From positions 1 to 35,076 of the forward strand of contig NZ_CAMJUE010000016.1 of the NCBI RefSeq assembly GCF_946408925.1: a DNA stretch of 35,076 nucleotides. The letters run 5' to 3'. Made by a program: the position numbers and the translations under genes. This DNA comes from an uncultured Methanobrevibacter sp. GTDB taxonomy: Archaea; Methanobacteriota; Methanobacteria; Methanobacteriales; Methanobacteriaceae. The notes beneath the pieces were generated by a model. The model saw only the letters and a program-made list of their open reading frames with translations. It had not been told where the DNA came from and made no database searches. Below are positions 774 through 28,089 of this stretch, in pieces (position 1 is the first letter of the stretch; each line of letters opens with the position of its first letter).

Positions 774-833
774 GATTTTCCCCGGAAATTTAATTATTTT
801 ATATTTTTAAATTGTATATTATATAATACACTC

Positions 834-851
834 AGTTAGCCAACACTAACT
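834..851. promoter_or_regulatory. Inverted repeat, candidate HxlR operator in divergent promoter
   Basis: AGTTAG, a 6-nt spacer CCAACA, then CTAACT: perfect 6-bp arms. It lies between the HxlR gene (start 773) and the flavodoxin (start 881 or 863), just right of an AT-rich TATA-like stretch (about 814-829). A regulator bound here would sit over the expected flavodoxin transcription start. This is an inferred binding site. Confidence 0.5.
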
Positions 852-880
852 ATATATTGTTGATGTTCACAACTATTATT

Positions 881-1519
881 ATGAACATTAAAATAATTCT
901 TTTAACAGCATTGATTGTTTTGGCTTTGGGCATTAGTGAAGTTGTGGCAATGAGTGATGCAGAAACTGTAGCCAATGATATCCTTAACAAGAATGCTTCA
1001 AACAGCGACACACTGATTGTGTATTTTTCAAGAACCGGCGAGAACTACAATGTAGGTAATGTTGAGGTTGGAAACACCGCAATGCTTGCATCCTACATCA
1101 AGGAATATCTGAAATGTGACTCATTTGAGATAGTTCCTATGGATAAGTACCCCGACAATTATGATGAATGCACAAAGATTGCATCAAAAGAAAAGGACGA
1201 TAACGCAAGACCAAAGATTGTCGGAAAAATTGATAATTTTGATAGCTACAAGACAGTATTTGTAGGTTATCCGATATGGTGGGGAGACCTACCAATGATA
1301 ATGTACACATTCATGGAAGACTATGAATTCAGCGGAAAAAAAGTCATACCATTCAACACACATGAAGGATCAGGTGATGCCGGAACCTACAATACCATAA
1401 AAGAAAAATTATCTGGTGCTGACGTAAACACCAATGGCCTGGCACTCGACGGTAAAACATCAAGAAGTGAAGAGGGAAAACAGCAAACAATTGACTGGTT
1501 AAAAGGTTTAGGTTATTAG
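881..1519 (+). CDS. Exported flavodoxin-family protein
   Basis: A flavodoxin-fold protein of about 212 residues behind an N-terminal hydrophobic segment (MNIKIILLTALIVLALG, ending near SEVVA) that looks like a signal peptide or membrane anchor. The FMN phosphate loop is visible as VYFSRTGEN, followed by an aromatic FMN-stacking stretch VGYPIWWGDLPM and a NTHEGSG segment, as in the flavodoxin_4 group. There is no lipobox Cys. The start at 881 gives a basic residue in the signal n-region. An in-frame ATG at 863 is possible, and neither has a clear ribosome site. Its stop codon is immediately followed by the ATG of the DUF4405-like membrane gene. Export of a flavodoxin together with a haem-type membrane protein suggests extracytoplasmic electron transfer; this role is inferred. 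Confidence 0.85.
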   Translation: MNIKIILLTALIVLALGISEVVAMSDAETVANDILNKNASNSDTLIVYFSRTGENYNVGNVEVGNTAMLASYIKEYLKCDSFEIVPMDKYPDNYDECTKIASKEKDDNARPKIVGKIDNFDSYKTVFVGYPIWWGDLPMIMYTFMEDYEFSGKKVIPFNTHEGSGDAGTYNTIKEKLSGADVNTNGLALDGKTSRSEEGKQQTIDWLKGLGY

Positions 1520-2114
1520 ATGAAAAGGACAATCATAGATATACTTTTGCTGGTAGCGATGCTTGTTGAATATTCAAAAGTATATCTGTCCCCACAAATA
1601 CATGAAATAGTTGGAATATGCCTAATTGTGCTTGTAGCGATGCATCTGATTTTAAACAGGAAATACATTAAGGCAATTTCAAAAGGCAGATACAGCAAAA
1701 AAAGAAGCCTTGAACTTATAATAAACCTTGGCTTTTTTTATAGCATTCATCATGACATGTATTTTTGGAATCCTTTCAAGCCGGGAAATACTTCCATTCC
1801 TCAATATTGGAAACCTGAGCATAATATATCTTCACAAAATCCTTGCATACACTTGCATAATTCTTTTAGGCATGCATCTTGGAATAACATTGAAAAAAAT
1901 ATTTAAAAAAATTCCGGGAAAATATGCCGTCTTCCCGGCAATCATAATATGCGGAATATATTCCTTCATTCAAGTTGATTTTTTCACTCATCTGACCGGA
2001 AAATCCGGTTTCAGCATGGTGAACGGAAATATCCTAATCAATTCGCTGGAATACTTAAGCATTGTTTTAATGATAGCAGTCATAGCAAACCTAATCTATT
2101 CCCGCCTATCATGA
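1520..2114 (+). pseudogene. DUF4405-like membrane cytochrome b-type protein, split by a frameshift
   Basis: Two overlapping reading frames make one protein. Frame one (from 1520) gives MKRTIIDILLLVAML, then HEIVG and VAMHLILN, to about 1732. The continuation, from about 1734 to 2114, is in the +1 frame and gives FIAFIMTCIFGILS, YLHKIL and LLGMHLGI, then a C-terminal hydrophobic helix. The switch falls at a run of seven T (1733-1739); six T would restore one frame of about 197 residues. The intact product would have about five membrane helices and four histidines placed as haem ligands, as in DUF4405 proteins found in flavin/electron-transfer loci. Removing one T, slippage, or a sequencing error could all restore it. 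It follows the exported flavodoxin without a gap and overlaps the convergent TPR-peptidase gene tail-to-tail by 19 bp. Confidence 0.75.
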
Positions 2115-3493
2115 CTTTCATATTCCCTTTTATACTTTCGAACAATACTTATATCATCATTGATTTCAATACTGAAAACACCCTTGGAAATAATCTTATT
2201 GATGTTTTTCACCCTTTTTTCAACAGACACCGTTTTTTTGGTTTCCAAAAGTATTCCATCATAGTTTGGAGGATTTGTGAAATCCTTTTTAAACTGTTCC
2301 TTGATTTCAGCTCTCCAACTTTTAGAAATGAATTCCTCAAGAATCGGAATTATATCCTCAGCGAAACTGTTCGCCAACCTCAGATAATACTTAATTCTGT
2401 CCTTATCCTTTTTGGAGTCGAACTTTTTGAGCAGCATGTTGAATGAACCGTAATTCTGATAACCGAAAGGTAAAAATCTTCCCTGAACAGTATGCGCACA
2501 GTATTCGTTCATGAGCTTATATGACTTGGTGTTGGAAAGGCAGTATATTGAAATGGCTTCAATCGCATGTGTCTTGTCGCTGTTCCAAATGTACATCAGG
2601 GACTGTGTGAATATTTCATTTAAAATATGATGTGTCAGCTCGTGAATCAGTGTTGAGATTTGCTGGGATTCATCCAACCTGTCATCAACCCTAATGACAT
2701 TAAATGCATAACTGCCCAATTCAGCACCCTTGTTTTTATATTCAACATCCGTAAAAGCCAGTGCCAAAAGACTAACCTTTTTGAAAATGCTGATTTCAGA
2801 CAGATTAATGTCATGCTCGGAAACAATCTCCCTGAAGTTTTTAATGCCTGCATTTTTAATTTTTGAGAGAATATTTTCATATTCCCCGACTGTCAACGGA
2901 TTGTCCTTTAAAAGATCAATACGCTTTTTAGTGAATATATTTTCAAACTCATTTAAATCTGAAACTGTTGTAAATCCGTCTTTCTTATTCAAATCCAATT
3001 TGTTTAACTTCTCTGTTGAATACTCCTCATCCTCTTCAATGAAATAATTCTCATCATCACAATCATCAGGACCTGAGAAGGAATTCAATATGTTTTCAAT
3101 GTCAAACCTGTTTCGATTTGAAGAAGGCCTGCTGTCCAATTGAATGTCTCCAATTGCTTTTTTAACAGCCAACGCCTCATAGTTTTCAGGATAATATTTC
3201 AAGGCCAAATCACAGTAAATTAAAGACTTATCATACTTTTCAGCCAAAAACAACAGATACGCCTTTCCGCTCCATGCAAAGGAATGCTCGTTATTAATCC
3301 TTAATGCCATATTGAAAGACATGTAAGCTTTTTCAAAATCATTCAGTTTTGTCTGGCACACTCCCAACAGAACCCATGCAGAATCATTGTTTTTATCATT
3401 TGAAAGAATTTTTTTGAAATAATCACGAGCCCGCGCATAATTTTTAGATTGAATATGCTCAATTCCACGTTTAAATAATGCTTTCTCATCCAT
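2096..3493 (-). CDS. TPR protein with HExxH metallopeptidase-like domain
   Basis: A 465-residue protein. Residues 3-115 form about three tetratricopeptide repeats (for example YARARDYFKKIL and DFEKAYMSFNMALRIN). An acidic linker covers about 120-170. A C-terminal domain (about 190-465) carries TLIHELTHHIL, an HExxH zinc motif at 284-288. E330 in MNEYCAH is a plausible third ligand of gluzincin type. No signal peptide is seen, so it should be cytosolic. I chose the ATG at 3493. An in-frame GTG at 3505 overlaps the GGGTG ribosome site and would only add four residues. It is the last gene of the chaperone/kinase operon, 51 nt after the small membrane protein. A regulatory or clean-up protease recruited through its TPRs is the natural reading, but no substrate is known. 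Confidence 0.75.
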   Translation of the reverse strand: MDEKALFKRGIEHIQSKNYARARDYFKKILSNDKNNDSAWVLLGVCQTKLNDFEKAYMSFNMALRINNEHSFAWSGKAYLLFLAEKYDKSLIYCDLALKYYPENYEALAVKKAIGDIQLDSRPSSNRNRFDIENILNSFSGPDDCDDENYFIEEDEEYSTEKLNKLDLNKKDGFTTVSDLNEFENIFTKKRIDLLKDNPLTVGEYENILSKIKNAGIKNFREIVSEHDINLSEISIFKKVSLLALAFTDVEYKNKGAELGSYAFNVIRVDDRLDESQQISTLIHELTHHILNEIFTQSLMYIWNSDKTHAIEAISIYCLSNTKSYKLMNEYCAHTVQGRFLPFGYQNYGSFNMLLKKFDSKKDKDRIKYYLRLANSFAEDIIPILEEFISKSWRAEIKEQFKKDFTNPPNYDGILLETKKTVSVEKRVKNINKIISKGVFSIEINDDISIVRKYKREYESHDRRE

Positions 3494-3544
3494 AAAAAAA
3501 AACACACCCTTAAAAAAAAGTAAAAGATAAAAAAAAGATAATTT

Positions 3545-3892
3545 TTATCTTACCGCTTCAATTTTTAAAAACGCTATAATCTGAGTGATGGCATCAACCG
3601 GAATATTGAGAATGACCAAATAGAATATAATTGCTCCCAATACCAAACCGCTCAAATACAAAATCCCCAGACCGAAAGGTCTTTCTGAAGCTCCGTTAGC
3701 ATAATAATCAAAACCGATTATTAGCTGAAGACCTGCCATTACAGATAAGATCAATGAAAAATAAAATGAGTCCACACCGAAAAAAGATAAATTGTAACAT
3801 CTGATACATATACTTATAATGAAAAGAATCAAAGCAAAGATTATGCTTTGTATAGACATCTTTTTTGTAAACTCATCATAAAAAAATCCCAT
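3545..3892 (-). CDS. Small membrane protein, function unknown
   Basis: A protein of 115 residues with three predicted membrane segments at about 13-33, 43-62 and 74-96 (IIFALILFIISICI, YFSLILSVMAGLQLIIGF, GILYLSGLVLGAIIFYLVIL). The ATG at 3892 is preceded by GAGGTGAT at the right spacing, and this ribosome site overlaps the stop codon of the phosphatase gene upstream. This start is better than the in-frame GTG at 3901. I do not recognise a family. Its tight coupling to the phosphatase gene suggests a membrane partner of the operon. Confidence 0.75.
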   Translation of the reverse strand: MGFFYDEFTKKMSIQSIIFALILFIISICIRCYNLSFFGVDSFYFSLILSVMAGLQLIIGFDYYANGASERPFGLGILYLSGLVLGAIIFYLVILNIPVDAITQIIAFLKIEAVR

Positions 3893-3897
3893 AGCTA

Positions 3898-4713
3898 TCA
3901 CCTCATTTCTTCAATAAAGTTCATCAACACATCCATATTGTCTATCGGCACGGACAAATCAACATCCAAATATGCCTTGTCCATAGTACCGAAGCTGGAT
4001 GATAAAATTATCTGATTTCCATAAATAAAATAACTGTCAACAACTGTATGACCTACAACCATGCAATTGGAACCTACAACTTTCAGGAACCTGTCAACAT
4101 CCTCAACAGAATAATCATTGTCGTAACGATTCCATAAAAAGCCGTACAGCCTCTTGTTGTTATAGTCATTGTCAAAAATCTTATTGAATGCACCTGTTGA
4201 GTTTATCAATCTTGAAGGTCCTGTGTGGGAGATAAACAATCCGTTTTCTGTTTGGACAAAAAAAGGCATGGATTTGAAAAATTCAACATAATCGGAAAGG
4301 TAAGGCTCAAGACTGCCTTTTTTTTCCACTATCAAATTTTCAAAATCCAGTGTCTGATTATTGAACCCTTTAAAGACCGGACTTTCAACAATGTGGCTCC
4401 ATTCATGATTGCCCAAAAGAGGATGGAAATTAGGATACTTTTTGAACTTTTCAATCACATCCTCTATTATTTCAATGGACCCGTCATCCTCACTGACCGC
4501 ATGAATAAAATCACCTACAAAAACCATATGGAAATCGGGATCATCACAATCCCACAAATCCATATATTTTTCATAATCCTCCAAATTCCCATGCAAATCA
4601 GTGACAACCAAAAGGCGTCCCTTTGAAGGCAACTGAATAAACTTTTCATTAAACATAATATTCTCCGAACTATCATAAAAAGATATGAATCTTTTAATTA
4701 TTCTAGAAATCAT
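3898..4713 (-). CDS. PPP-family metallophosphatase (Ser/Thr protein phosphatase-like)
   Basis: A 271-residue calcineurin-like phosphoesterase with the full PPP motif set: VTDLHGN (D39, H41), VGDFIH (D68), LLGNHEW (N102, H103, E104), ISHTGP (H163) and VVGHT (H222). These residues bind the dinuclear metal centre. The order and spacing fit PPP-type protein phosphatases such as bacterial PrpA/PrpB and lambda phosphatase, although the canonical DR after the GD motif is replaced by IH. It starts 16 nt after the Hsp70 gene and lies in one operon with a Hanks-type kinase, so it is probably the opposing phosphatase. A nucleotide-directed activity (Ap4A hydrolase-like) cannot be excluded from sequence alone. 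Confidence 0.85.
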   Translation of the reverse strand: MISRIIKRFISFYDSSENIMFNEKFIQLPSKGRLLVVTDLHGNLEDYEKYMDLWDCDDPDFHMVFVGDFIHAVSEDDGSIEIIEDVIEKFKKYPNFHPLLGNHEWSHIVESPVFKGFNNQTLDFENLIVEKKGSLEPYLSDYVEFFKSMPFFVQTENGLFISHTGPSRLINSTGAFNKIFDNDYNNKRLYGFLWNRYDNDYSVEDVDRFLKVVGSNCMVVGHTVVDSYFIYGNQIILSSSFGTMDKAYLDVDLSVPIDNMDVLMNFIEEMR

Positions 4714-4729
4714 TTCCTACAGTCCATGA

Positions 4730-7222
4730 TTAAGATTTACCTACTCCACCAGGGCCAACACCACCATCATCCTTCATTAGATTTATGAGTTTATTTGCAA
4801 TATTTGCCATTGCAGGCACATCTTCATTGTCCAAAGCCACTTTACCTTGTTCTTTTAAATCATTTACTAAATCTGCATCTTTCTCTTCATATTCTGCAAA
4901 AAGCATTAAATAAAGTAAGGCTTGCTTAATCTGTTCAATTTGACTGCCCACAGGAGTTAATTCTGCCTTTAACTTAAATAAAGCATTTCGCAATTGGTCG
5001 ATTTTAAGAGCATCTTCATTTTCAATAGCTTCATCTACTTCTCTGGAAACCTTATCAAACTCATCCTTCTGTTCAAGGGTACCGTTTTCCCGGGCGAGTT
5101 CAGCAACTTCATCCCTTAATTGTTTAATCTCCTCAAACTTATTTTTTTCTTCAAAATAATTATTTATATTGTTTATAAGTTCATTTAGTTTATTGATTAA
5201 CTTGTTTGCCTGGTCAATTGCGCCTTCGTCATTTTCAGCACCATCCAATGAATCCTCAATATTTTTAATTAAATTTTCATCTTCAATCTGATTTAAATAT
5301 GCTTCAATGTCTTCAGGAATATTCTCCCTTGCACATTTTGACTTGACATCCTGATAGTCACTTTTTGCTTTTTTAAATTTATTATTCACTTCATTAAAAG
5401 TGAAACCTTGAACATTAGGGTCTATTCCAAATGGAATTTTTTGTCCGGTTTCAAGAATGGTAACCTCAAAGTCCATAGTACGTGATTCATCAATATCAAC
5501 AGTAACCGTAATCTCACTACCGGCTAACATTGTTTCATTAATCATTTCACCTGAAATCAACAATTTCCCCATCAGCTCATTATTGGATGCCACTCTGGCA
5601 GTACCATTATATAATGGTAATGACAATAAACTGGAAGAATCTCCTTTAATAACATCATTTTTTGTAACGAACGGTTCCATATTATGATAAGGAAGAGGAA
5701 CTCCTTCTTTAGCTAAAATAAATAAACTGTCATCATACAATCCCAAACCTAATGTATGAGGCAACACTACCTCCGGTACAACTCCTACTTTATATTCAAT
5801 AGCAGTTGGGGAATTTTCGTCAAGTTCGACTATACTTCCGCCGGCATCATATAAACTGATAGAATATCTGTTTACATCATCTTCAGGGTTCAATTCAAAT
5901 TCGAAATACCCATCGGATTCAACAGAAATTTTACCTGTGGTTCTTTTAGTTTTAATATTAATTGCCTCAACAGTAAAACCATCAAAATCATCTGTTTTTT
6001 CAGACAACACCTCTCCTGATACGAAAAATTCTTCTTTTGGCCCTGTTGAAGCATAATCTAATTTTAATCCAAAACTGTCAGATGAAACTGGGACATGAGG
6101 ATCAGGTATTGTTCCTGCAAACAATGCAGCACCTTTTGCAACAACAGTAGTTGGGTCGATATCATATTTTAACGGAATATTGAATGATTTTTCCAAACGT
6201 TCACGTATTACCGGACTAAGAGTGGATCCTCCGACCAAAATAATATAATCAATATAATCTGCTTTCAAGTTAGCTTTTTTCAATGCGTCATTACAATGGT
6301 TGATTGTCCTTTTAATATAGGAATCCATTATTTCTTCAAGTTGGTCTCTTTTTAAGGTGTATTTGAAATCATAAATGTCATTATCATGCACCATCAGACT
6401 ATCGACAAATATTTTTGCCTTATCGGATCTGGACAAATCTTTTTTTGCCTCTTCAGCTGCACCTTTAAGTTTAGCAAATTGTTTGCCATATTTTCCCTTA
6501 TGGGTTTTATTAAAGTCTGAAATACCCAAATCTTCACGTATTTTTTCAGCAAAAATTTTATAAACAATATCCCAATCAATCAGGTTTCCGCCAAGACGTT
6601 CATCACCGGAATGAGAGAGATTTTCAAATTCCCCACCTTCCAACTTGACAACAGATACGTCAAATGTACCTCCTCCCAAATCATAAATCAACCATATTCC
6701 CTCTTCATTTAGAAAGTTTGAATAAGCATAAGCTGCCGCTACAGGCTCCATAATAACTGGAGTGAAAGCAAAGCCTGCAATTTCTGCAGCTTTTTTGGTG
6801 GCTTTAATTTTAATTGGCCCAAAATCTGCAGGAACTGTAATTACTGCAGAATTGACAGTTTTATCCAACTGTTTGAAAACTGAATTTTTCAAATCTTTTA
6901 AAACTTCAGCAGACAACTCTTCAGGAAATAATTTTTTTCCTGAATCTTCAAAAACATACTCCTTTTTCATACCCATATCGAGTTTGAATTCCGCAGCTGC
7001 ATTCATTGGATCAAATAAAACCTGTCTTTTTGCAGAATCACCAACCATTATATTTCCTTCATCATCAATAGCAACAGCAGAAGGTGTAAAATTCCTATTA
7101 CTTATTAAATTTGGAACTATCGGAGTATCATTACCCTCACAATGAGCAATAATTGAAGTTGTAGTTCCCAAATCTATTCCAAAATCAACCATTTTTGTTC
7201 TTAATTCTTCAGAGTTAGACAT
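4730..7222 (-). CDS. Atypical Hsp70 chaperone with inserted interdomain module
   Basis: An 830-residue Hsp70, about 200 residues longer than DnaK. The ATPase domain (about 11-385) has phosphate-1 GIDLGTTTS (15-23), phosphate-2 IYDLGGGTFDVS (179-190) and the adenosine motif IILVGGSTLSP (327-337). At about 390-480 the usual hydrophobic linker is absent. In its place is a beta-rich insert (FTVEAINIKTKRTTG, SDGYFEFEL) resembling a carboxypeptidase-regulatory-like fold. A recognisable beta substrate-binding domain follows (LPHTLGLGLY, about 488-600). The C-terminal third (about 605-815) is a long charged helical region, ending in a Gly-rich tail with no EEVD or acidic DnaK tail. The ATG at 7222 has a GGTGA ribosome site. 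It is probably a dedicated paralogue serving this operon. Confidence 0.92.
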   Translation of the reverse strand: MSNSEELRTKMVDFGIDLGTTTSIIAHCEGNDTPIVPNLISNRNFTPSAVAIDDEGNIMVGDSAKRQVLFDPMNAAAEFKLDMGMKKEYVFEDSGKKLFPEELSAEVLKDLKNSVFKQLDKTVNSAVITVPADFGPIKIKATKKAAEIAGFAFTPVIMEPVAAAYAYSNFLNEEGIWLIYDLGGGTFDVSVVKLEGGEFENLSHSGDERLGGNLIDWDIVYKIFAEKIREDLGISDFNKTHKGKYGKQFAKLKGAAEEAKKDLSRSDKAKIFVDSLMVHDNDIYDFKYTLKRDQLEEIMDSYIKRTINHCNDALKKANLKADYIDYIILVGGSTLSPVIRERLEKSFNIPLKYDIDPTTVVAKGAALFAGTIPDPHVPVSSDSFGLKLDYASTGPKEEFFVSGEVLSEKTDDFDGFTVEAINIKTKRTTGKISVESDGYFEFELNPEDDVNRYSISLYDAGGSIVELDENSPTAIEYKVGVVPEVVLPHTLGLGLYDDSLFILAKEGVPLPYHNMEPFVTKNDVIKGDSSSLLSLPLYNGTARVASNNELMGKLLISGEMINETMLAGSEITVTVDIDESRTMDFEVTILETGQKIPFGIDPNVQGFTFNEVNNKFKKAKSDYQDVKSKCARENIPEDIEAYLNQIEDENLIKNIEDSLDGAENDEGAIDQANKLINKLNELINNINNYFEEKNKFEEIKQLRDEVAELARENGTLEQKDEFDKVSREVDEAIENEDALKIDQLRNALFKLKAELTPVGSQIEQIKQALLYLMLFAEYEEKDADLVNDLKEQGKVALDNEDVPAMANIANKLINLMKDDGGVGPGGVGKS

Positions 7223-7249
7223 ATATTCACCATTTTTAATCTTAAAATT

Positions 7250-8053
7250 TTATTTTTCTGCACCTGCCCTTGTAACAACAACTTGTGCTTTTAAAACCTT
7301 TTTACCATTGAAATAAATTTCAGGTTTTTTAGTTTCGGTAATTGTAGGCACTTTCAAATTAGGATTTTCATCTTCAAAAGCAAGCACATCAATATCCATG
7401 TATGCATCATATTTCTGACCGATAGGATCCTTAATTTCAAAGCCCCAGTTAGATAATTTCGACAGCAACACATTATAGTATTCCACAGTGGAATTTATAG
7501 GGCGCAATGAATCGTTAATAATTTTTTGACAGATTTTCACTTCATTTAAATTATCATTAACCCTCACACTATCATACTTAGGGTTTTCAAGAATATGGGT
7601 TAATTTTTCTTCTTGTTTTGACAAATAACCGGTTACAACTGACAATTGGTTTTGCTTTTGATATTTTATTGCAATATTGCCCATTACCCATAAATTTGTA
7701 ACCATTTCAACCATTATTTTAGTCATTTTTGAAGAAACTGCAGGATTTTTTGAATCCAAATATTGAATATCCGCAACAAGTTTGCCTACAACGTTTTCTA
7801 TTTCACGCATACGCTGCATCACTACAGTATCCATTTCAGACAATTCTTCCGGTTTTTGAGGAACTGCATTTTGATTTAAATTATTAAGCGGTTTTTGATT
7901 TAAATTTGCAAATTGCCCCTTGTTCTTTAAATTCGGCCTTTGTTTAGCCCTTGCACGAACTCTCTGCTGGTTCTTATTTTTTTTATTTTGAGAATTACCT
8001 TTATTATTCCTGTTAAACATGCCTTTAACGGAATCCAATGGATTATCACTCAT
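7250..8053 (-). CDS. Asn/Lys-rich helical protein of Hsp70 operon, function unknown
   Basis: This 267-residue protein is not a family I recognise. The first ~70 residues are low-complexity, basic and rich in Asn, Gln and Lys (NRNNKGNSQNKKNKNQQRVR), probably disordered. Residues about 70-200 are amphipathic helices with coiled-coil character (MDTVVMQRMREIENVVGKL, YLSKQEEKLTHILEN). The last ~60 residues include a short beta-type tail (PEIYFNGKKVLKAQVVVTR). There is no signal peptide or membrane helix. It lies between the J-like protein and the Hsp70 gene (20 and 27 nt gaps). A cochaperone or exchange-factor role is conceivable from position and helical content, but no GrpE signature is visible. 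Confidence 0.7.
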   Translation of the reverse strand: MSDNPLDSVKGMFNRNNKGNSQNKKNKNQQRVRARAKQRPNLKNKGQFANLNQKPLNNLNQNAVPQKPEELSEMDTVVMQRMREIENVVGKLVADIQYLDSKNPAVSSKMTKIMVEMVTNLWVMGNIAIKYQKQNQLSVVTGYLSKQEEKLTHILENPKYDSVRVNDNLNEVKICQKIINDSLRPINSTVEYYNVLLSKLSNWGFEIKDPIGQKYDAYMDIDVLAFEDENPNLKVPTITETKKPEIYFNGKKVLKAQVVVTRAGAEK

Positions 8054-8073
8054 TTTTTTATACCTCCAAAGTT

Positions 8074-9852
8074 TTATAAGAAATTAACCCCCGCATAATA
8101 TGCCAAAGATAATAGCATTACAATCACTACAAAAATAGCATATTTTTTATTATAAGATGTAGGAGTTGAAGTTTTTTCCTCGTTAAGTTTGACGATTAAT
8201 AAATTTGGATGATTATCTCGAACAGTTATTGTTCCCGTATATTTCTCATAACCTAATTTATCAACTTCGTATCTGTATCTACCTAAAGGCAGATCATTTA
8301 TTGTGCAATCCCCTGAAATGTCTGTAACTTTTTCATAATGTTTTCCCGTTTCGATATTAGTCAAGGACACTGTTGCAACTATTCTCTCTCCACTGGAAGA
8401 TTTAACGGATATATCAACACTGGCTGTGGATTTAGAAGTTTTTCCTTCTTTTTTAAGAGTTAACTTTTCCAATTTCATTCCATCACTAAGAGTTACTTTT
8501 CCCTCATAGGTCACATATCCGATTTTTCTTGCAGTATATGAATATTCACCCTCAGACAAATCTTTTATACTACATTCACCATAATCATCAGTTTCCAGAT
8601 AGTTTACGCTTCCAGTGTCGGAATTAGTTAAAATAACATCAACATTACTTAAACGAGCTCCGTCTTCATCAACAATTGAGAAATTAAGGGTGAGTGAACC
8701 TTCAAAAGATTCGAAAGTATTGATATCAGAACTGATTCTGCCTACCAAATCACTGTCTGTTGCATATTCCCGTAATTTTTTAAGCAAATCAAGGAATTTA
8801 TTGAAATTATCCTCATCAATTATTTTTAATAAAACCAACTCGGACTGTGCAGGAATCCTATTATATAAAAGATAACAGGTGGAATTTAACAGATTATTTG
8901 CATATGTATCACCTTTTAGTGAAGTGCTCAAAACAGACAAGTAAGGCAATACCTCATCACTATACTCAAATAATAAATTAAATTTATCTTTAATATCTTC
9001 AGCTGATTCAAAAGACTTTTCGAATGATTTTTTATTTTGATTGACCAATTCATCAAGGGCATTAACAATTTTGGAAGAAACCTTACTTTTATCTGATTCA
9101 TCAAATGGAGAATCTGAAATATTATCAATGAATTTAGATACGTAATCTAATTTTCTCTTACCAATATTTGATGAACGCAATATTTTTTTGATGAACAGAT
9201 AATTAATATTCAACAAAGCAAACGGCAAATTTTCAAATATTTCATCGATATACTCCTCAGTCAACCGTGGATCATTTATATCATTCACTCTTTGCTTAAC
9301 ATAATTTTTAAAATTACTTGAATTGACAGTTTGATTCCAATAGTTTAAAGCCAAATCCAAATCTTCAAACAATTTCTTATTTCCTTTACCGTCCATGAAT
9401 CCATCTAAAGCCCTTACATGATATAAAACTGCCAGATTATGAATGGAAGTCATGTTCATAGTGCCTGAAGTTGAGGTATCTCCCCAATAGGAAATAGCTT
9501 TATTAAAATTATTTTCCTTTAAATAATCTGCAACTTCCTCATCAAGGTCACTGTCAAAAGATTTTGGCCAAAACCAAAAAATTTCATCAATCATTCTTGT
9601 TTTAACATTGGTTAAACGATTTTTTGCATCCTGATACTCATTATAGGAAGGTTCAGGTGAAACAGGCAATAAAAAATTCATGTTAGATTTATCGAAAACA
9701 CCTTTTAAAGGTTCAGTGTCACTGAAGTTTTTTCTTTGCTTATACCTGTCAATTCTAGTAATACGATTATCTATCTTCCTTCCTTTAGTTGTTATATCCA
9801 ATCCCAAAATTCTAAAACCGTTGGTTCTATAAATATTTTCTTTTACATCCAT
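8074..9852 (-). CDS. Tail-anchored J-like/carboxypeptidase-regulatory-like protein
   Basis: 592 residues with three parts. Residues about 7-40 (NIYRTNGFRILGLDITTKG, then IDNRI) resemble helices I-II of a J domain, the (Y/F)RxLGL pattern followed by a basic helix, but the HPD tripeptide is missing. A following segment AKNRLTNVKTRMIDEIFWFWP (about 76-96) leads into a helical middle region to about 380. Residues about 386-467 and 478-557 are two copies of a beta-sandwich repeat (ETDDYGECSIKDLSEGEYSY; TDISGDCTINDLPLGRYRY) like carboxypeptidase-regulatory or PEGA domains. One C-terminal membrane helix (about 570-590) ends the protein, so the bulk should face the cytosol. The ATG has a GAGGTGT ribosome site. 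It may recruit the operon's Hsp70 to the membrane; this is inferred. Confidence 0.75.
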   Translation of the reverse strand: MDVKENIYRTNGFRILGLDITTKGRKIDNRITRIDRYKQRKNFSDTEPLKGVFDKSNMNFLLPVSPEPSYNEYQDAKNRLTNVKTRMIDEIFWFWPKSFDSDLDEEVADYLKENNFNKAISYWGDTSTSGTMNMTSIHNLAVLYHVRALDGFMDGKGNKKLFEDLDLALNYWNQTVNSSNFKNYVKQRVNDINDPRLTEEYIDEIFENLPFALLNINYLFIKKILRSSNIGKRKLDYVSKFIDNISDSPFDESDKSKVSSKIVNALDELVNQNKKSFEKSFESAEDIKDKFNLLFEYSDEVLPYLSVLSTSLKGDTYANNLLNSTCYLLYNRIPAQSELVLLKIIDEDNFNKFLDLLKKLREYATDSDLVGRISSDINTFESFEGSLTLNFSIVDEDGARLSNVDVILTNSDTGSVNYLETDDYGECSIKDLSEGEYSYTARKIGYVTYEGKVTLSDGMKLEKLTLKKEGKTSKSTASVDISVKSSSGERIVATVSLTNIETGKHYEKVTDISGDCTINDLPLGRYRYEVDKLGYEKYTGTITVRDNHPNLLIVKLNEEKTSTPTSYNKKYAIFVVIVMLLSLAYYAGVNFL

Positions 9853-9862
9853 TAATTACACC

Positions 9863-11494
9863 TCACATAGATAATCCGCGCTTCCATAAAGACAATTTAC
9901 CTGAATATTCGGATTCAATTTCATTGTCTGAAAGGACTGCAAATTCCATCAGTCTTGCAATTTCAATTTTCTTAGAGTCATCCCATCTGTATTTTTTAAT
10001 TAATTTAAGGGATTCATCAACAATCTTATCAACATCACCTGTTTTCAAAATATCCATGAACGGGCGATACATTTCACCAATATATGAATAATCTTCCATT
10101 ATATCATTTAATGATTCAACAGCACTGTTTAAATCTTTATTTTCATATAAATCTGACAATAATGTCCATAATGAAATATATCCCTCATATTTATCATTAA
10201 ATTCAGGATTATATGCAATTGCTTCCTGTAAAAGGTCACAGGCAAGTGCATAATTAGGATTGTCCTGACTGTAAATCTTGAATGATTCACCCATCAATTT
10301 TTCATCAGGCATTTCGTCTTTCCATAATCTGAGACGGTAAGTGTATTTTTCACGCACATCGATGTTTTTAATAATTGCCTTTTCCAAGATTTCAATGGCA
10401 TCATCCAATCTGTTTTCCTGTTTTGCCAAACTGAAAGCCTCTGACAACAAATCTTCCATACTCTCAGTGAAATCCTGTTCAACGACTTTATCATCGTCAT
10501 CACTAACGGAACCTGATGAGGAAATCTGAGATGTGTAAATCACAGTGGTTTCATTAACCCCCAAATCATCTTCCATATAATCAGTTATGACCTTCAACAG
10601 TTCCCCTGAATCTTTATATCTTTCTTTCGGATTAACATAGAGACATTTTACTACAATGTCATCCAATTCAGAAGGAATATCTGAATTATAATAACTAGGA
10701 GGTTTTAAATCACCTTTCCATGGTTTTCCGAAAAACATATCGCCCATATCAAATTTTATAATGTCATAAGGGAAACGATTGGTTAACAATTGATAAAAAA
10801 TAACTCCAATTGCATAGATGTCACTCATTGTTGAAAAGTTCTTTTTGAAACATTCCGGAGCCATATAAAGTGGAGTTCCTGCAACTGAGAGGTTGTCAAA
10901 TGAACTGTCACTGTCCTTAGCATTGGCCAGACCGAAATCAGTGATTTTAATAAGTGGCTTGCCGTCCTCTATTTTCATCAATAGGTTTTGAGGCTTTATA
11001 TCCCTATGGATGATTTTAGGTTTATTTGTATGCAATACATCCAATCCCATTGTAATCTGTTTCATTATATCCAATGCTTCAATTGTAGGCATGATCTTGC
11101 CCCGGCTTTCAAAGGATTTCCAGTATTCCCATAAATCCCCCCCACGAACATATTCCATGACGAAATAAGCATATTTCTTATCCCTATCGTTTTTTAAGCC
11201 AAAATTGAAAAATCCCTTTTTGTCCTGTCCTGAAACTGAAATGATTCCCGCATCGTGCATACTGATAACATTCTTGTGCCTGATTAAGGTAGCGATTCTT
11301 GCCTCCTTAAAAATGTTATCGATGTCATTTACTGACAACGGCTGTTTGTTGATTTTCATTGCACGGCGGTCGTTTAAATAGACATGATTTACAAGATACA
11401 CATCGGCAAAACCACCATGCCCCAGGAATTTTTCAACCTCATATTGGCCTCTGAAAAATTCCTCAACCATACGTTCTACTTCACTTTGCATCAT
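9863..11494 (-). CDS. Hanks-type Ser/Thr protein kinase with C-terminal helical repeats
   Basis: 543 residues. The N-terminal kinase domain (about 15-305) has all catalytic motifs: Gly-rich loop LGHGGFADVYL (24-34), ATP-lysine K47, helix-C E64, HRDIKPQN (163-170), DFGLA (186-190), the activation loop with SVAGTPLYMAPE (203-214), and the SDIYAIGVIFYQLLT stretch. It should be active. The C-terminal ~210 residues contain TPR/Sel1-like helical repeats (LDDAIEILEKAII; ALACDLLQEAIAYNP; LNSAVESLNDIM) for protein binding. No membrane segment is present, unlike PASTA kinases. It lies between the Clp and J-like genes with 10-11 nt gaps and shares the operon with a PPP phosphatase. Its likely targets are the neighbouring chaperone proteins, which is inference. 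Confidence 0.93.
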   Translation of the reverse strand: MMQSEVERMVEEFFRGQYEVEKFLGHGGFADVYLVNHVYLNDRRAMKINKQPLSVNDIDNIFKEARIATLIRHKNVISMHDAGIISVSGQDKKGFFNFGLKNDRDKKYAYFVMEYVRGGDLWEYWKSFESRGKIMPTIEALDIMKQITMGLDVLHTNKPKIIHRDIKPQNLLMKIEDGKPLIKITDFGLANAKDSDSSFDNLSVAGTPLYMAPECFKKNFSTMSDIYAIGVIFYQLLTNRFPYDIIKFDMGDMFFGKPWKGDLKPPSYYNSDIPSELDDIVVKCLYVNPKERYKDSGELLKVITDYMEDDLGVNETTVIYTSQISSSGSVSDDDDKVVEQDFTESMEDLLSEAFSLAKQENRLDDAIEILEKAIIKNIDVREKYTYRLRLWKDEMPDEKLMGESFKIYSQDNPNYALACDLLQEAIAYNPEFNDKYEGYISLWTLLSDLYENKDLNSAVESLNDIMEDYSYIGEMYRPFMDILKTGDVDKIVDESLKLIKKYRWDDSKKIEIARLMEFAVLSDNEIESEYSGKLSLWKRGLSM

Positions 11495-11505
11495 ATTAAC
11501 ACCTT

Positions 11506-13803
11506 TTACTCCACTTTAAATTTTAATTCATTGCGAACAGCTGAAATTACAATAGTGTCGCCCTGTTTGACTTCCCTTCCAACTATCATGTCTGAAATTG
11601 GATACTCAACAAGCTTTTCAACTGTTCTTTTAAGATATCTGGCTCCAAAGTTTGCATTATATCCCTTGCTTACCAGATATTTATAGACAGATTTTTTAAC
11701 CTTAAGTTCAATGGATTTTTCTGAGGAAATGCGCTCTGACAAATCATCCACATATAATTTCACCAATGCCTCATGGTCTGATTTGGTCAATGCATTGAAA
11801 ATAATCACGTCATCAATTCTGTTTACCAGTTCAGGCCTCATCACCTGAGCCAAATTATCCAAAATATTGAGAGTGTTCATATCTTCCTGTGTTCCTCCAA
11901 ATGCAACGTTATAATCCTGTTTGGTTTCAAGCTGAATGTTTGAAGTCATTATGAAGATACAATTTTTGGCGTTTATTGTATTTCCCTTACCGTCTGTCAG
12001 ACGACCTTCATCGAATGCCTGGAGGAATACATCAAATATTTTAGGATGCGCCTTTTCAATTTCATCCAATAAAACTATTGAATAAGGATTGTTCTTGATA
12101 GCATTGGTTAAAAATCCGCCTTCATCATTACCTTTATATCCCGGAGGCGCACCGATCAACTTTGAAATGGAATGTTCTTCCTTATATTCAGACATGTCTA
12201 CCCTAATCAATGACTTTTCACTGTCAAAGAGGAATTTTGCCAAAGTTTTTGAGAAGAATGTCTTACCCACACCGGTAGGTCCCAAAAATAGGAACACTGC
12301 CAAAGGCTTGTCCGGATTGTTGATTCCTGCATAGGAATTTTTGATTCTCTTTGAAACCTTTTCAACGGCATGATCCTGACCGATTATTTTTGATTTAAGG
12401 AACTCCTCAATGCGCTGAGCCTTTTCAAATTGGGAAGATTCATCAGAAATAGGAACTCCAGTCCATTCAGACACCACAGTTCTTACATCCTCTTCACTCA
12501 CAATAGATTCAATATTCAATGAATTGGTAATATCAAGTTTAGGAATTAGTTTTCGAGAACATGCCTCATCTATTACATCCAATGCTTTATCAGGAAGGTT
12601 TCTATCGGTTATGTATCTTACAGACAGATTTACTGCTGCTTCAATTGCCTCATCGGAAATTGTGACATTATGATACTCCTCATAATTTTCCTTCAGTCCC
12701 TTAAGAATAAATAATGTATCTTCAGGAGTAGGTTCATCCAATACTACAGGCTGGAATCTTCTTTCAAAAGCAGGGTCTGTTTCAAAGTATTTGCGATATT
12801 CCTGCAAGGTGGTTGCACCTATCATTACAAGATCTCCATTTGCCAATGCAGGCTTTATAATATTTGAAGCATCAAGACTTCCGCTGCCTGAACCTGCACC
12901 CAATATTGTATGTATCTCATCAACAAACAGGATAACCTCCGGATTGTCCTTGGACTCGTTAACAAGCTTGGTTATCTTTTCTTCAAATTCTCCACGATAT
13001 TTGGTTCCGGCAACCAGTGAAGCCATGTTGATTTCAATAATCTGCTTATCTTTTAGGAAATCCTTCATGCTCCCGTCAGTTATCTTTATGGCCAAACCAT
13101 TTACCAGTGCGGTCTTACCTACACCAGGCTCACCGATAATAAGAGGATTGTTCTTTTTACGTTTATTTAATGTTCTTACAACCTGCAATAATTCCTCATC
13201 ACGACCAATTACAGGAGTCAGTTTACCTTCCTTGGCCAGTTCGGTTAAGTTAGTACCATATTTAACCAAAATACTATTTGATGAGAGCTTCAATTTTTTT
13301 GATTCAGGTTTAATGTCCAAATTAGTCTTCAGTTCTTCAAAATCAATTCCTTTTTCTTCAAAGAATGTTTTTATAATATCTGAAGGCTTGTTCAGCAATG
13401 CCTTTAGAAAGTGGATGCAGCGAACCTCATCGCTGTTTGTACTTTCTGCAATTTTACCTGCATCATCAAAAATCACCTTACAGGACTTTGATCTTGAAAC
13501 CATATGATTTTCAGGTTCAAAAGAACCGACTCCCTTCAATTCACGAATTCCACGGCGTATAGAAGTAGTATCCAAATTGAAGTCATCGAAAAATTCTTTT
13601 ATCTCATTGTTTTCATCTTTAATTAATTCTTCATATTCATCATTAAAATTTACCTTATTCTCTTTTATTAAAAATACCATTTTCTCCATACTGCATATTC
13701 CAATAAGCAGTTCATCTTCGGAAAAATATTCCTGCTTTAAACCGGCAGCTTCTGCAGAACCTAATTCCCAAGCCAAATATGCACATTTTGACAATCTTAC
13801 CAT
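11506..13803 (-). CDS. Two-ring Clp/Hsp100 AAA+ ATPase (ClpA/ClpC-like, no M-domain)
   Basis: 765 residues. The N-terminal ~165 residues resemble a Clp N-domain. AAA-1 has Walker A GEPGVGKT (224-231), pore loop GTKYRG (266-271), Walker B ILFVDE (291-296) and an arginine finger region ERRF (347-350). AAA-2 has Walker A GPTGVGKT (508-515), pore loop GYKG (555-558), Walker B IVLLDE (576-581) and sensor-2 residues near GARYLKR. Between the rings there is no long coiled-coil middle domain, so it is organised like ClpA or a short ClpC rather than ClpB. A VAFGG segment (633-637) lies roughly where ClpA has its ClpP-docking loop, but ClpP is not expected in this lineage. It probably unfolds or disaggregates proteins with the operon's Hsp70. 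Confidence 0.92.
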   Translation of the reverse strand: MVRLSKCAYLAWELGSAEAAGLKQEYFSEDELLIGICSMEKMVFLIKENKVNFNDEYEELIKDENNEIKEFFDDFNLDTTSIRRGIRELKGVGSFEPENHMVSRSKSCKVIFDDAGKIAESTNSDEVRCIHFLKALLNKPSDIIKTFFEEKGIDFEELKTNLDIKPESKKLKLSSNSILVKYGTNLTELAKEGKLTPVIGRDEELLQVVRTLNKRKKNNPLIIGEPGVGKTALVNGLAIKITDGSMKDFLKDKQIIEINMASLVAGTKYRGEFEEKITKLVNESKDNPEVILFVDEIHTILGAGSGSGSLDASNIIKPALANGDLVMIGATTLQEYRKYFETDPAFERRFQPVVLDEPTPEDTLFILKGLKENYEEYHNVTISDEAIEAAVNLSVRYITDRNLPDKALDVIDEACSRKLIPKLDITNSLNIESIVSEEDVRTVVSEWTGVPISDESSQFEKAQRIEEFLKSKIIGQDHAVEKVSKRIKNSYAGINNPDKPLAVFLFLGPTGVGKTFFSKTLAKFLFDSEKSLIRVDMSEYKEEHSISKLIGAPPGYKGNDEGGFLTNAIKNNPYSIVLLDEIEKAHPKIFDVFLQAFDEGRLTDGKGNTINAKNCIFIMTSNIQLETKQDYNVAFGGTQEDMNTLNILDNLAQVMRPELVNRIDDVIIFNALTKSDHEALVKLYVDDLSERISSEKSIELKVKKSVYKYLVSKGYNANFGARYLKRTVEKLVEYPISDMIVGREVKQGDTIVISAVRNELKFKVE

Positions 13804-13838
13804 ATCATAACCCCGAAAGATTTTTTTAACTTTAATAA

Positions 13839-13850
13839 TACATCGATGTA
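13839..13850. promoter_or_regulatory. 12-bp perfect palindrome upstream of the Clp gene
   Basis: TACATCGATGTA reads identically on both strands. It lies in the only appreciable gap (64 nt) near the top of the operon, 35 nt upstream of the Clp start codon. It could be an operator or a chance palindrome; no matching regulator is seen nearby. Confidence 0.35.
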
Positions 13851-13867
13851 AAAAACTTAATCTAAAA

Positions 13868-14233
13868 TTATGCTCTTATAAAAACCGCAAACAGACCAAC
13901 AAGTAATGAAACAATCAAACCTGTGATAATCGGACCCAAACCCAACATAGAATATGGGAAACCTATATTAGGACCAAGAATAATTGGGAATATGAAATTC
14001 ATTATTAAAAATACGACAACTATGGCCAAAAATAATCCGACTATTGCAGATGATTTTGAAATTGATGAATTTACCAAATTACTTGGTACCGCCGCAATAA
14101 TGATGTATAAGACCAATACTGAGAGAATAGTATCTCCCAGAAGGAAATGAACAATTGCAGCGAAAATTAATGCGAGAATAGTTGTATAAATAATTCCTCC
14201 AATTGTAGCACCTATTATTTCAGATTCATCCAT
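13868..14233 (-). CDS. Small hydrophobic membrane protein, first gene of chaperone operon
   Basis: 121 residues with about four membrane segments (GGIIYTTILALIFAAIVHFL, ILSVLVLYIIIAAVP, IVGLFLAIVVVFLIMNFIF, PIITGLIVSLLVGLFAVFI) and a short acidic N-terminus (MDESE). The ATG follows a near-perfect GGAGGTAAT ribosome site. I do not recognise a family. It is separated from the Clp gene by 64 nt on the same strand and probably heads the operon. Together with the tail-anchored J-like protein and the small membrane protein near the other end, it suggests that the module works at the membrane. Confidence 0.75.
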   Translation of the reverse strand: MDESEIIGATIGGIIYTTILALIFAAIVHFLLGDTILSVLVLYIIIAAVPSNLVNSSISKSSAIVGLFLAIVVVFLIMNFIFPIILGPNIGFPYSMLGLGPIITGLIVSLLVGLFAVFIRA

Positions 14234-14559
14234 AATATTACCTCCACATGATATAATATTAGTTAAAAAAATATTTAAGTTGAATAAAGCAATTACTTTA
14301 TAGAAGAATTTTTAATAATTTTTTATTAAAAAATTATAAATTAAACAATTATTAGGAAAAATGAGTTAATATTAAATATTTTCTAAGAATGGTCAGAAAA
14401 TGTTCACCCTCCCCCAAAAACTCAAAAAATTATTGAAATAAGTAAAAAAAGATTACTAAAAAAATCATGAAATTTTCAAAAAATATAATGATAAATGGTT
14501 TATACCTGCAAACATTAAAAAAATAATTGGAATACAAAAGTATCCCATAAACTTCAGAA
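14234..14559. promoter_or_regulatory. Intergenic region holding the presumed operon promoter
   Basis: 326 AT-rich bases without a gene. On the minus strand ACTTAAATAT (14271-14280) is a TATA-like box about 40 nt before the ATG at 14233. Next to it lies an inverted repeat, ATAAAG-N6-CTTTAT (14284-14301), where an archaeal activator could bind. Further out, AATTTTTTA-T-TAAAAAATT (14317-14335) is another inverted repeat but is simple AT-rich sequence. The left-pointing operon and the left-pointing acetyltransferase are the only neighbours. No other gene was seen. Confidence 0.4.
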
Positions 14560-15747: not shown

Positions 15748-15780
15748 AAAAAAAATAGTATTAGGGAATAGATTCCCTAA
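15748..15780 (-). terminator. Terminator of the giant adhesin gene
   Basis: TTAGGGAAT (15761-15769), a 2-nt loop, then ATTCCCTAA (15772-15780): perfect 9-bp arms. On the minus strand this hairpin includes the TAG stop codon (15777-15779) and is followed by a run of eight T (A run 15748-15755 on the plus strand). Confidence 0.8.
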
Positions 15781-26588: not shown

Positions 26589-26940
26589 ATTAAACACATC
26601 AAATTTTTTTATACATAAATACATATTAAATTTACATTAAATATTATTTATGTTTAGATACTTAAAGTAAACAATATCATAATCAATTCTCAATCTACAC
26701 ATTTACTTCTGCCATTTACATAGCTTAAATCAACAGCATCTAGTTTCAGTTTAATCAATTTCATACCTCAAAGTATTTCGATTGAATCCATTTTCACAAC
26801 TGTTAAAGCTGTAGATAGCTATAAAGTAATTCATTAATTTTATAATCCAATAATTAAAACTGTACAATATCTATTGTCATTTTCACTGCCAAAATCTATT
26901 CAATACATAATGTTCATAAGTATAATCCCACATTACGACT
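26589..26940. promoter_or_regulatory. Intergenic region upstream of the giant adhesin
   Basis: About 350 AT-rich bases. The minus-strand leader just before 26588 has AT-rich TATA-like sequence (around 26605-26650) and only a weak ribosome site (GATGTG). No second gene is seen. A short plus-strand stretch near 26810 could be degraded adhesin coding sequence but is too short to call. Confidence 0.35.
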
Positions 26941-26973: not shown

Positions 26974-28072
26974 TCAAATTTCAAATAGATATTTTTTTCC
27001 AAATTAGCAAGTCTAGATTTGACTTTTAATTTTCTGAATAGCAATTCCCGTATCCAGTCGATAGCACATACAACAAATATTGCAACTCCAATAAGAATAA
27101 CACTAATTATCATCAAAATTGGATTCATTTAAGCTAAAAATGCGAATTTACCATCAAAGTAGAAATGGGCTAATGACATATTGTTATGAATCAAATAAAC
27201 ACCAAAACAGACTGGAGTGAAGAATTTAATAATAGATATGACTGATGATTTAGTAATATTCAATCTTTTAAATACACAGAATAATGCAATTCCACCTATA
27301 AAGTTCAATACAGATAAATAACAATTAAAGGAATATAAAGCAAAACCAGTTTCTATCAAACCAATTGATTCAAGGACAAATCTAATTAGCCAAGAAGCTA
27401 ACATACATATAATATAAATTAAAAGCCATTTATAAGTTTTAAAGATTTTAAATACATTATATTTATGTAAAAGACCTCCAGTATAATATAAAACAATGAA
27501 CCATAATACACTGTATCCTTGATTAAGATTAAATGCTGCATCCTGGTTTAAAACTGTTGGCAATAATGAAAATATAATAAATACGCTTAAAAATGCCGCC
27601 AGATCTTGTTTTTTATTAAAATGTTTTAAACCCAAGTTTACAAATGGTGAAATTAAAAACATACCAACATATGCAGTAAAGAACCAATACCTACTAAATT
27701 GACTATTAGTATAAATGTTGGAATAATGTTTTTCCAGAACTGCTCTAAACCAATTTCACCAGGCAATAAGAATTTAAGTATAATAATAATTATTATAGAA
27801 TAAAATAAAACTTCAGCCCACAATGTCAATAAACGATAATATTTAGTTTCCTTACCATAATAAACATAACCTGTAATTAAAACAAAACAGTTAACAGCAA
27901 CTAATAAAAATGACTCCAATAACCAAGCAGACTCATATTGCAAAGAAAAAGGAATTGTAGCACTAATAACCCCACCTTGACCCAATATATGAACTATTGG
28001 AACCATTAGCATTGATACAATCCGCAATAAATCAATACCATAATCCCTTTGAGTTGTTTTCAAAACAATCAA
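26958..28072 (-). pseudogene. Membrane acyltransferase (acyltransferase_3/OafA-type), broken by a frameshift and a stop
   Basis: Three pieces form one integral-membrane acyltransferase. Piece one, from TTG 28072 (ribosome site GGAGGT at 28079-28084), gives RDYGIDLLRIVSMLMVPIVH and runs to about 27715. There one T seems to be missing from an A/T run near 27713-27715. The frame then continues as TNSQFSRYWFFTAYVGMFL and MFLISPFVNLGL to a TAA at 27129-27131. The same frame resumes at once with MNPILMIISVILIGVAIFVV and ends at 26958-26960, the normal C-terminal membrane helix of the family. The intact enzyme would O-acylate surface or cell-wall glycans. An insertion sequence starts only 5 nt upstream of the ribosome site, so the native promoter is also gone. 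Confidence 0.85.
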
Positions 28073-28089
28073 CGTATAAACCTCCAAAA

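Follow-up and report, generated by a model that had tools for sequence, protein, structure and literature searches.

The question raised by this locus is what a methanogenic archaeon does with a block of co-oriented genes that combines an Hsp70, an Hsp100-type Clp ATPase, a serine/threonine kinase and a protein phosphatase. The window analysed here is a stretch of 35,076 nt from an uncultured Methanobrevibacter sp., namely contig NZ_CAMJUE010000016.1 (C16 in our numbering) of assembly GCF_946408925.1 (G000; 2.30 Mb, 133 contigs, 87.8% complete), and the block consists of nine open reading frames (ORFs) on the minus strand at 2096-14233. We hypothesize that the genes specify a private Hsp70/Hsp100 machine that is tethered to the membrane and run as a phosphorylation-controlled switch, which probably serves to answer stress or conflict with viruses or other elements and not to carry out routine folding; we give this reading an even chance of being correct, an assessment that is based on the co-occurrence and position tests described below. 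Relatives from the same family are numbered G001-G137, and 138 family genomes were searched for the Hsp100, the FHA protein, the kinase, the palindrome, RtcB and DnaK, while the J-like protein was sought in 151 genomes of the phylum; all presence counts are given without phylogenetic correction.

In the order of transcription, the operon starts with a 121-residue protein with three transmembrane segments (TM121; 13868-14233), recognised from hydropathy and from homologues that occupy the equivalent position in G070, G097 and G094. It is followed by the Hsp100 (765 residues; 11506-13803), a Hanks-type kinase with the Lys, HRD, DFG and APE motifs (543 residues; 9863-11494), a J-like protein (8074-9852), a protein of 267 residues that we assign below as GrpE-like (7250-8053), an Hsp70 (830 residues; 4730-7222), a calcineurin-like, PPP-type phosphatase with the motifs DLHG, GDFI, GNHE, SHTGP and GHT (Pfam 4e-11; 3898-4713), a small membrane protein of 118 residues by hydropathy (3545-3901) and a TPR protein with an M78/IrrE-like HELTH motif (469 residues, PF06114 at 1e-4; 2096-3505). 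Pfam recovered a double AAA+ Clp architecture, Pkinase, CarboxypepD_reg/PEGA in the J-like protein, HSP70, Metallophos, TPR and a weak Peptidase_M78, in agreement with the identities that an earlier, sequence-only reading had given to the Clp ATPase, the Hsp70, the kinase, the phosphatase and the TPR/HExxH peptidase-like protein. All nine same-strand genes of that reading are present. The gaps are 64, 11, 10, 20, 27, 16, -4 and 39 nt, so that the upper bound of 64 nt given earlier stands, whereas the lower bound of 5 nt does not: the phosphatase gene and the gene for the 118-residue protein overlap by 4 nt. For each of the nine genes, comparison with three relatives gave a nonsynonymous divergence (dN 0.075-0.38) far below the near-saturated synonymous divergence (dS from 0.87 to unresolvable).

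The components of the chaperone core support a remodelling machine of Hsp70 and Hsp100, as had been proposed earlier. The Hsp70 has both the ATPase domain (PF00012, 7e-82) and the substrate-binding domain (SBD) of a DnaK-type chaperone; in a profile-profile comparison its C-terminal part matched a near-full-length DnaK within the SBD (E 3.6e-6, probability 87%), with E 0.44 for the reversed control. The alignments suggest an extra domain at approximately residues 385-485, between the ATPase domain and an SBD-beta-like region, the latter being followed by a helical C-terminus. A test for the interdomain-linker motif missed the motif on canonical DnaK as well. The protein shares 72% and 67% identity with proteins encoded by two contigs that are labelled as uncultured Methanobrevibacter, and the Hsp70s of such operons form a clade with kinase-fused Hsp70s, apart from DnaK (support 100/100, with a long-branch warning for L095). 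Canonical DnaK was not found in the G000 assembly (88% complete).

The product of gene 5 had been left unassigned as a helical protein. We assign it, on the strength of its predicted structure, as a divergent GrpE-like nucleotide exchange factor, an identity that is weak by sequence and clear through the predicted fold. The AlphaFold2 model (mean predicted local distance difference test score, pLDDT, 74) is ordered from residue 70, with low confidence for residues 1-69, and in a fold search of the PDB the hits at ranks 1-8 were all GrpE (best E 5.5e-5). Pfam GrpE was matched below threshold by 2 of 22 homologues (best 1.8e-4) and by 5 of the 10 homologues tested next (5e-4 to 0.03), and all of these matches extend to the end of the profile. 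A comparison with the GrpE of the family using hhalign gave E 0.004 and a probability of 8% (reversed and unrelated controls, E 0.34-0.83), and a sequence-profile search of the PDB with the GrpE-like family returned zero matches.

For the J-like protein, the AlphaFold2 model (mean pLDDT 89.6) displays, by eye, four N-terminal helices arranged as in a J domain, a middle part built of helical repeats and then a pair of Ig-like domains, as well as a C-terminal helix (residues 568-591) that corresponds to a tail anchor by hydropathy. The matches in a fold search of the PDB were dominated by the Ig-like domains. Among 11 intact J-like proteins (a set outside of which L066 falls), hydropathy indicated a tail anchor in all 9 that are linked to a kinase and in neither of the 2 without a kinase in the block (G113 and G033). 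Together with the two small multi-spanning proteins, the anchor bears out the membrane attachment of the original proposal. J-like domains were also seen after the apparent end of a kinase C-lobe in protein P0030 (by eye) and along with a precomputed response-regulator domain in P0032-P0034, and signalling links of J-like domains therefore recur elsewhere. The Hsp100 has two Walker A motifs at a spacing of 284 residues (280-284 in 13/13 loci), as in ClpA-type enzymes. In ClpB the spacing is about 400 residues, and because the motifs are so close to each other here, the Hsp100 is predicted to be without the M-domain insertion.

Conservation of the block was examined in archaeal relatives, where a scattering of the genes would have spoken against a single unit. 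The genes were not scattered. Full-length Hsp100 was found in 14/138 genomes; partial matches of lesser length occur in G001, G096 and G097. Strong matches to the J-like region were found in exactly the same 14 genomes among the 151 searched; ten further genomes, at E up to 0.001, matched only the C-terminal and essentially Ig-like part of the profile. The probability of identical genome sets by chance is 2e-19, uncorrected for phylogeny. A second Hsp100 in G050 was rejected as a family member: its contig neighbours look bacterial (ClpP-, ClpX- and Lon-like by eye), indicating contamination.

Three forms of the locus can be distinguished. The typical form includes the complete nine-gene order in four genomes (G000, G070, G097 and G094) and the block Clp-kinase-J-GrpE-Hsp70-PPP...M78 in G041 (without the 121-residue gene) and G124 (without the 118-residue gene). 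In the TIR form (G056, G085, G082 and G079), a TIR-domain gene is located 3-47 nt upstream of the Clp gene in 4/4 cases, and there is no M78-like gene. The reduced form (G113, G110 and G033) lacks the kinase and the phosphatase in the block; in G113, a kinase and another Hsp70 are located about 30 kb away (L060). The block in G035 is cut by the contig end. From these three forms we consider the Hsp100, the J-like protein, the GrpE-like protein and the Hsp70 to be the core, the kinase and PPP phosphatase (in 10/14 blocks) to be a second layer, and the effector-like partner to be variable.

The second layer seems to connect the chaperones to a wider phosphorylation system. Catalytic motifs are kept in both the kinase and the phosphatase of the operon, and among 33 kinases scanned, HRD was present in 33 and DFG in 32. 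Only two Pkinase matches in G000 exceed the cut-off, and both are linked to an Hsp70: the operon kinase and a kinase-Hsp70 fusion of 1166 residues, which is encoded in a sister operon on contig C36 of the same genome, downstream of RtcB, SIS and FHA genes in one same-strand run. Of the 18 fusion loci examined, 11 have a PPP phosphatase after the fusion, which is missing from the copy in G000, and in relatives the fusion is often followed by RyR-type proteins and once by a TIR-RyR protein, with RyR assigned by Pfam in one protein and in the TIR-RyR protein, and by position and similarity in the remainder. Such proteins of about 740-810 residues, often in tandem, adjoin the fusion operon in L036, L037, L039, L042-L046, L072 and L074. 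In genus g9 (L070, L071 and L073), large proteins with a DUF4062-like start are located beside separate kinase and Hsp70 genes; the full DUF4062-AAA-WD40 architecture was identified by Pfam in L071 only.

The FHA protein of the sister operon has an N-terminus that looks like a winged helix by eye, and an FHA domain by Pfam. It was found in 36/138 genomes (E up to 1e-15) and the kinase in 30/138 (E up to 1e-20), all 30 falling within the 36 (Fisher 1e-24); furthermore, an FHA gene is close to the nine-gene block in G041, G094, G097 and G124. The link to reversible phosphorylation that had been postulated for the operon is thus strengthened by the kinase-phosphatase pairs in the blocks, by the kinase-Hsp70 fusion and by the FHA protein in every kinase genome. 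Likewise, the RtcB paralogue that heads the sister operon of G000 was found in 16/138 genomes, one of which is the contaminated G050, and was missing (E up to 1e-20) from 29/29 genomes chosen to be without the sister operon. These 29 include four with FHA and no kinase (G076, G098, G115 and G116), two with the typical block (G097 and G041) and one with the reduced block (G033). Since the paralogue is absent without the sister operon and its 15 remaining genomes all lie within the kinase set, we regard it as a member of the module that is present in half of the kinase genomes; that it could be a housekeeping neighbour was rejected on its rarity and on this absence. A search with PADLOC-DB 2.0.0 gave no system-specific match; the hits were generic (kinase as PD-T4-6 and mad6, AAA and TIR) or weak, as in the match of the FHA protein to Csa3.

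A shared upstream site offers a further connection. A candidate operator, the palindrome TATAAAG-N6-CTTTATA (14283-14302), is located 49 bp before the first ATG of the operon and is the sole exact match to WATAAAGNNNNNNCTTTATW in the assembly. G097, G079 and G082 have one exact palindrome each, always before the same type of operon, and similar palindromes precede the sister operon as well as TIR genes and some of the TPR genes. In a position test, matches within 130 bp upstream were scored out of 14 for the first-gene starts of TM121, Clp, RtcB and TIR in comparison with other ORFs. At least 13 positions were matched at 10/27 of these starts versus 1/275 other ORFs, the single case being a divergent region in common with the Clp gene of G041, and at least 12 positions at 15/27 versus 11/275; 13 of the 15 sites are 39-65 bp from the start codon. 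The palindrome was also seen upstream of 3/13 TPR genes. The test covered ORFs of at least 100 residues with at least 130 bp of upstream sequence (among those outside it are the G056 TIR gene and the G094 TM121 gene, both cut by locus ends), three RtcB genes were classed as internal and fall outside the 27 (2/3 at 13 or more), and the TM121 start in G070 was miscalled and counts as a miss despite a nearby 17/20 site. The palindrome was spotted by eye upstream in G000 and G097, which are therefore not independent, and G079 and G082 are close relatives. In G124 (contig C86, 24360-24379), an exact palindrome is located about 200 bp upstream of an FHA gene (23431-24156, minus strand), beyond the 130-bp window. 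The palindrome, the sister operon, the TIR variant and the GrpE-like identity all go beyond the sequence-only reading.

How could such a system work? We hypothesize that the machine is localised to the membrane by the J-like protein and that assemblies of abnormal or foreign proteins would engage the Hsp70 and the Hsp100 there. The J-like and GrpE-like proteins, along with the load of clients with the Hsp100, would determine the nucleotide state of the Hsp70, and this state may in turn gate the kinase. Targets phosphorylated by the kinase would be recognised through the FHA domain of the winged-helix protein, which might then adjust transcription at the palindrome, and the phosphatase would reset the switch. 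Further downstream, the linked effector could be the M78-like peptidase in the operon studied here and the TIR protein in the variant. The TIR, RyR, DUF4062-AAA-WD40 and RtcB partners seem to favour a response to conflict or damage over housekeeping folding, and the alternative of a defence or stress-response module, which had been mentioned from the start, is strengthened by the occurrence of TIR, RyR and DUF4062-AAA partners and by the patchy distribution across genera. The shared site and the kinase-Hsp70 fusion suggest an undescribed chaperone-based signalling or defence system. A bolder hypothesis, which we put forward tentatively and believe to be more probably wrong than right, is that of a new class of switch for immunity or stress in archaea, based on an Hsp70 ATPase that lies beside a kinase or is fused to one, senses abnormal protein assemblies at the membrane and starts a phospho-relay to the FHA-winged-helix regulator of one TATAAAG-N6-CTTTATA regulon, comprising the chaperone operon, the RtcB RNA-repair operon and the TIR/RyR effectors, in a design like that of the unfolded-protein response.

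Several observations weigh against the hypothesis of a phosphorylation-controlled chaperone switch. The HPD motif is missing in 36/36 J-like sequences, compared to its presence in 15/15 canonical DnaJ proteins of the family, and the J-like domain resembles DnaJ only weakly (E 0.013, with a probability of 3% by hhalign), so that the predicted stimulation of the Hsp70 by this protein is unproven. The TM-scores of the GrpE-like model to GrpE are low overall (0.2-0.5), its identity deriving mainly from the predicted fold. Cooperation of the classical DnaK-ClpB kind is doubtful because the Hsp100 is without an M domain. Furthermore, 4/14 core loci have no kinase or phosphatase in the block (the three reduced loci and G035, the contig of which is truncated), and the kinases of the four TIR variants belong to a very divergent lineage that had no APE match by the pattern used and whose joins in the kinase tree carry long-branch warnings. 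The FHA protein occurs without the kinase in 6/36 genomes (the four listed above, G034 and G110), and the RtcB paralogue is present in only 15/30 kinase genomes. Finally, FHA genes seldom have the palindrome (at 12 or more positions, 0/7 first-gene starts and 1/18 internal genes), and the exact palindrome is not enriched genome-wide (45/138 genomes versus 56/138 for a backwards control); the case for it is based on the position test.

The most serious competitor is plain proteostasis. In this reading, an accessory Hsp70 and the Hsp100 would act as a disaggregase under stress from heat, bile or oxygen, phosphorylation would do no more than fine-tune the process, and there would be no role in conflict. 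This is unlikely in our view, albeit far from implausible. It would explain the full set of Hsp70, J-like, GrpE-like and Hsp100 proteins and the retention of an SBD-beta-like region in the Hsp70, and the 14 loci indeed contain the only full-length Hsp100s of this type in the family genomes other than the bacterial contaminant in G050. However, at least 9 of the 14 core-bearing genomes also have a listed canonical DnaK, and a disaggregase for general use fits poorly with so patchy a distribution, with the absence of the M domain and the HPD motif, and with the associations to TIR, RyR, FHA and RtcB. A further point against it is the fused Hsp70 of the sister operon, which has no SBD detectable by blastp: with the SBD region of the operon Hsp70 as query, 18 separate proteins and no fusion were matched.

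A second possibility is a dedicated role in the assembly or surveillance of large surface and membrane proteins, with adhesin-like or secretion complexes as the objects of remodelling at the membrane. The tail-anchored J-like protein with its Ig-like domains, the two small transmembrane proteins and the TIR partners that are fused to PMP/adhesin-like repeats would fit such a role, as would the adjoining gene for an adhesin-like protein of 3615 residues with beta-helix, PMP and Ig-like repeats (15777-26624, minus strand). Yet, adhesin-like genes are abundant in Methanobrevibacter, the flanks differ between loci and the J-like proteins of G113 and G033 have no anchor, all of which makes this explanation quite improbable.

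It had also been proposed that the machine feeds a dedicated protease, with the Hsp100 threading its clients into the M78-like protein. An Hsp100 of ClpA-like length and the HExxH motif in 6/6 typical loci are in line with an unfoldase-protease, as may be a conserved stretch, VAFGG or similar, close to where ClpP would dock (VAFGG in four loci). This stretch does not seem to be of the IGF/IGL type seen in the ClpP-docking loop of ClpA/ClpC enzymes, and the partner of a ClpA/ClpC-ClpP protease was not recovered: a search for ClpP had 0 matches in G000 (88% complete), whereas the same search was positive in 12/14 control genomes. The M78-like gene is missing from 6/14 core loci (the four TIR variants, G113 and G110) and was not seen on the truncated contig of G035, and in G033 the first histidine of the HExxH motif is gone (KELTH). 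With no ClpP found in this assembly and with the M78-like gene or its first histidine lost elsewhere, the protease proposal fell, and we now think it very improbable. As for a chance neighbourhood of unrelated genes, its probability is negligible and it was dismissed on the gene order kept over several species despite varying flanks, the identical phyletic sets and the common upstream site.

Returning to the hypothesis of a chaperone switch, the operon can be compared with systems in which some of its parts occur together. In type VI secretion, a threonine phosphorylation pathway combines PpkA, PppA and Fha with ClpV. The kinase, phosphatase, FHA protein and Clp ATPase resemble that set, but the phosphatase there is of the PP2C type and not PPP, no type VI or other secretion genes were identified among the nine genes or the flanking window genes scanned, and the Hsp100 scores 632 bits against TIGR03345 (TssH), below the cut-off of 885. 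The eukaryotic unfolded-protein response relies on the kinase IRE1, the Hsp70 BiP and RtcB; the Hsp70-linked kinase and the RtcB of the sister operon are similar by analogy only, with no claim of homology, and Pfam detected no RNase domain in the operon kinase or in the fusion. The DnaK-DnaJ-GrpE-ClpB bichaperone system shares with the operon an Hsp70, a GrpE (here by fold), a J-like protein and an Hsp100 with two AAA domains, here encoded in one operon, which differs by having neither an HPD-containing J domain nor an M domain and by the extra domain in the Hsp70 and the added kinase and phosphatase.

The nearest published idea that we found is the HSP70-GrpE-DnaJ theme in GTPase-centred conflict systems. 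The accessible parts of that paper (Kaur et al., 2020; PMC7159879) describe GAP1-N2 systems with HSP70, GrpE and a J domain fused to beta-sandwich repeats (DnaJ-FNIII), predominantly in actinobacteria and firmicutes, while another theme adds a kinase, a PP2C phosphatase and a vWA protein, and TIR effectors occur in the systems. As described in those parts, the systems are defined by DO-GTPases with GAP1/GASH, none of which is found among the nine genes, where Pfam detected no GTPase domain. The same parts describe no Hsp100 or PPP phosphatase beside an Hsp70 and no kinase-Hsp70 fusion, whereas these are present in the window module and the sister operon. A system combining a kinase, a PPP phosphatase, an Hsp70 and an Hsp100 was not found in a thin literature check of excerpts (PMC7159879, PMC8195603, PMC7772410), which is no proof of its absence from print. 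Judged by its predicted components, the module adds to the chaperone-centred signalling and conflict systems a variant with a kinase, a PPP phosphatase and an Hsp100.

If our hypothesis is correct, an Hsp70 would act as the ATPase switch of an archaeal Ser/Thr phospho-signalling system, and a chaperone-based branch would be added to the predicted conflict systems of archaea. To our knowledge, few circuits with Hanks-type kinases are known in archaea. The kinase-Hsp70 fusion, the FHA reader and the palindrome offer pairs that can be tested. The findings are of relevance to animal-associated methanogens, in that one homologous contig belongs to the metagenome-assembled genome RUG344, RUG being a rumen series.

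The module also looks mobile, and its distribution suggests that it has spread horizontally. The flanks differ between loci, with the exception of G097 and G041, which share downstream TPR and FHA genes; the Hsp70 of G113 (genus g12) nests within the Hsp70s of genus g1, to which the window belongs, which indicates horizontal transfer; and in G033 and G035 the block adjoins RNA polymerase genes. In L068 (G033), two frames of the RpoA type (Rpb1 domain 5; 8419-9615 and 17899-19899), one with a long stretch of acidic repeats, flank the core, as if the block had been inserted at an RpoA-type gene and duplicated it. In L099 (G035; 787-5090), the Clp gene directly follows the gene for the RNA polymerase B subunit on the same strand, possibly a similar region of insertion. 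No mobile element was identified at the loci, and a virus- or plasmid-borne module was considered and rejected after a J-like query found no match in plasmids, phages and viral contigs, and two J-like homologues none in plasmids. In L067 (G110), the J-like and Hsp70 genes are each broken into two ORFs, which may reflect decay of the module or an assembly error.

Some further features were noted in the window. Terminator-like hairpins with a T run were seen on the minus strand between an upstream acetyltransferase gene and the operon (14528-14547) and downstream of gene 9 (1914-1938); both are weak candidates from a pattern scan in which support is near the level of chance (9 found versus 6.7 expected). 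At 27129-28087 (minus strand), the two halves of an acyltransferase (PF01757) are matched by two overlapping ORFs in different frames, so that the gene looks frameshifted or split, and it is adjoined by a DDE transposase gene at 28395-29870 (plus strand).

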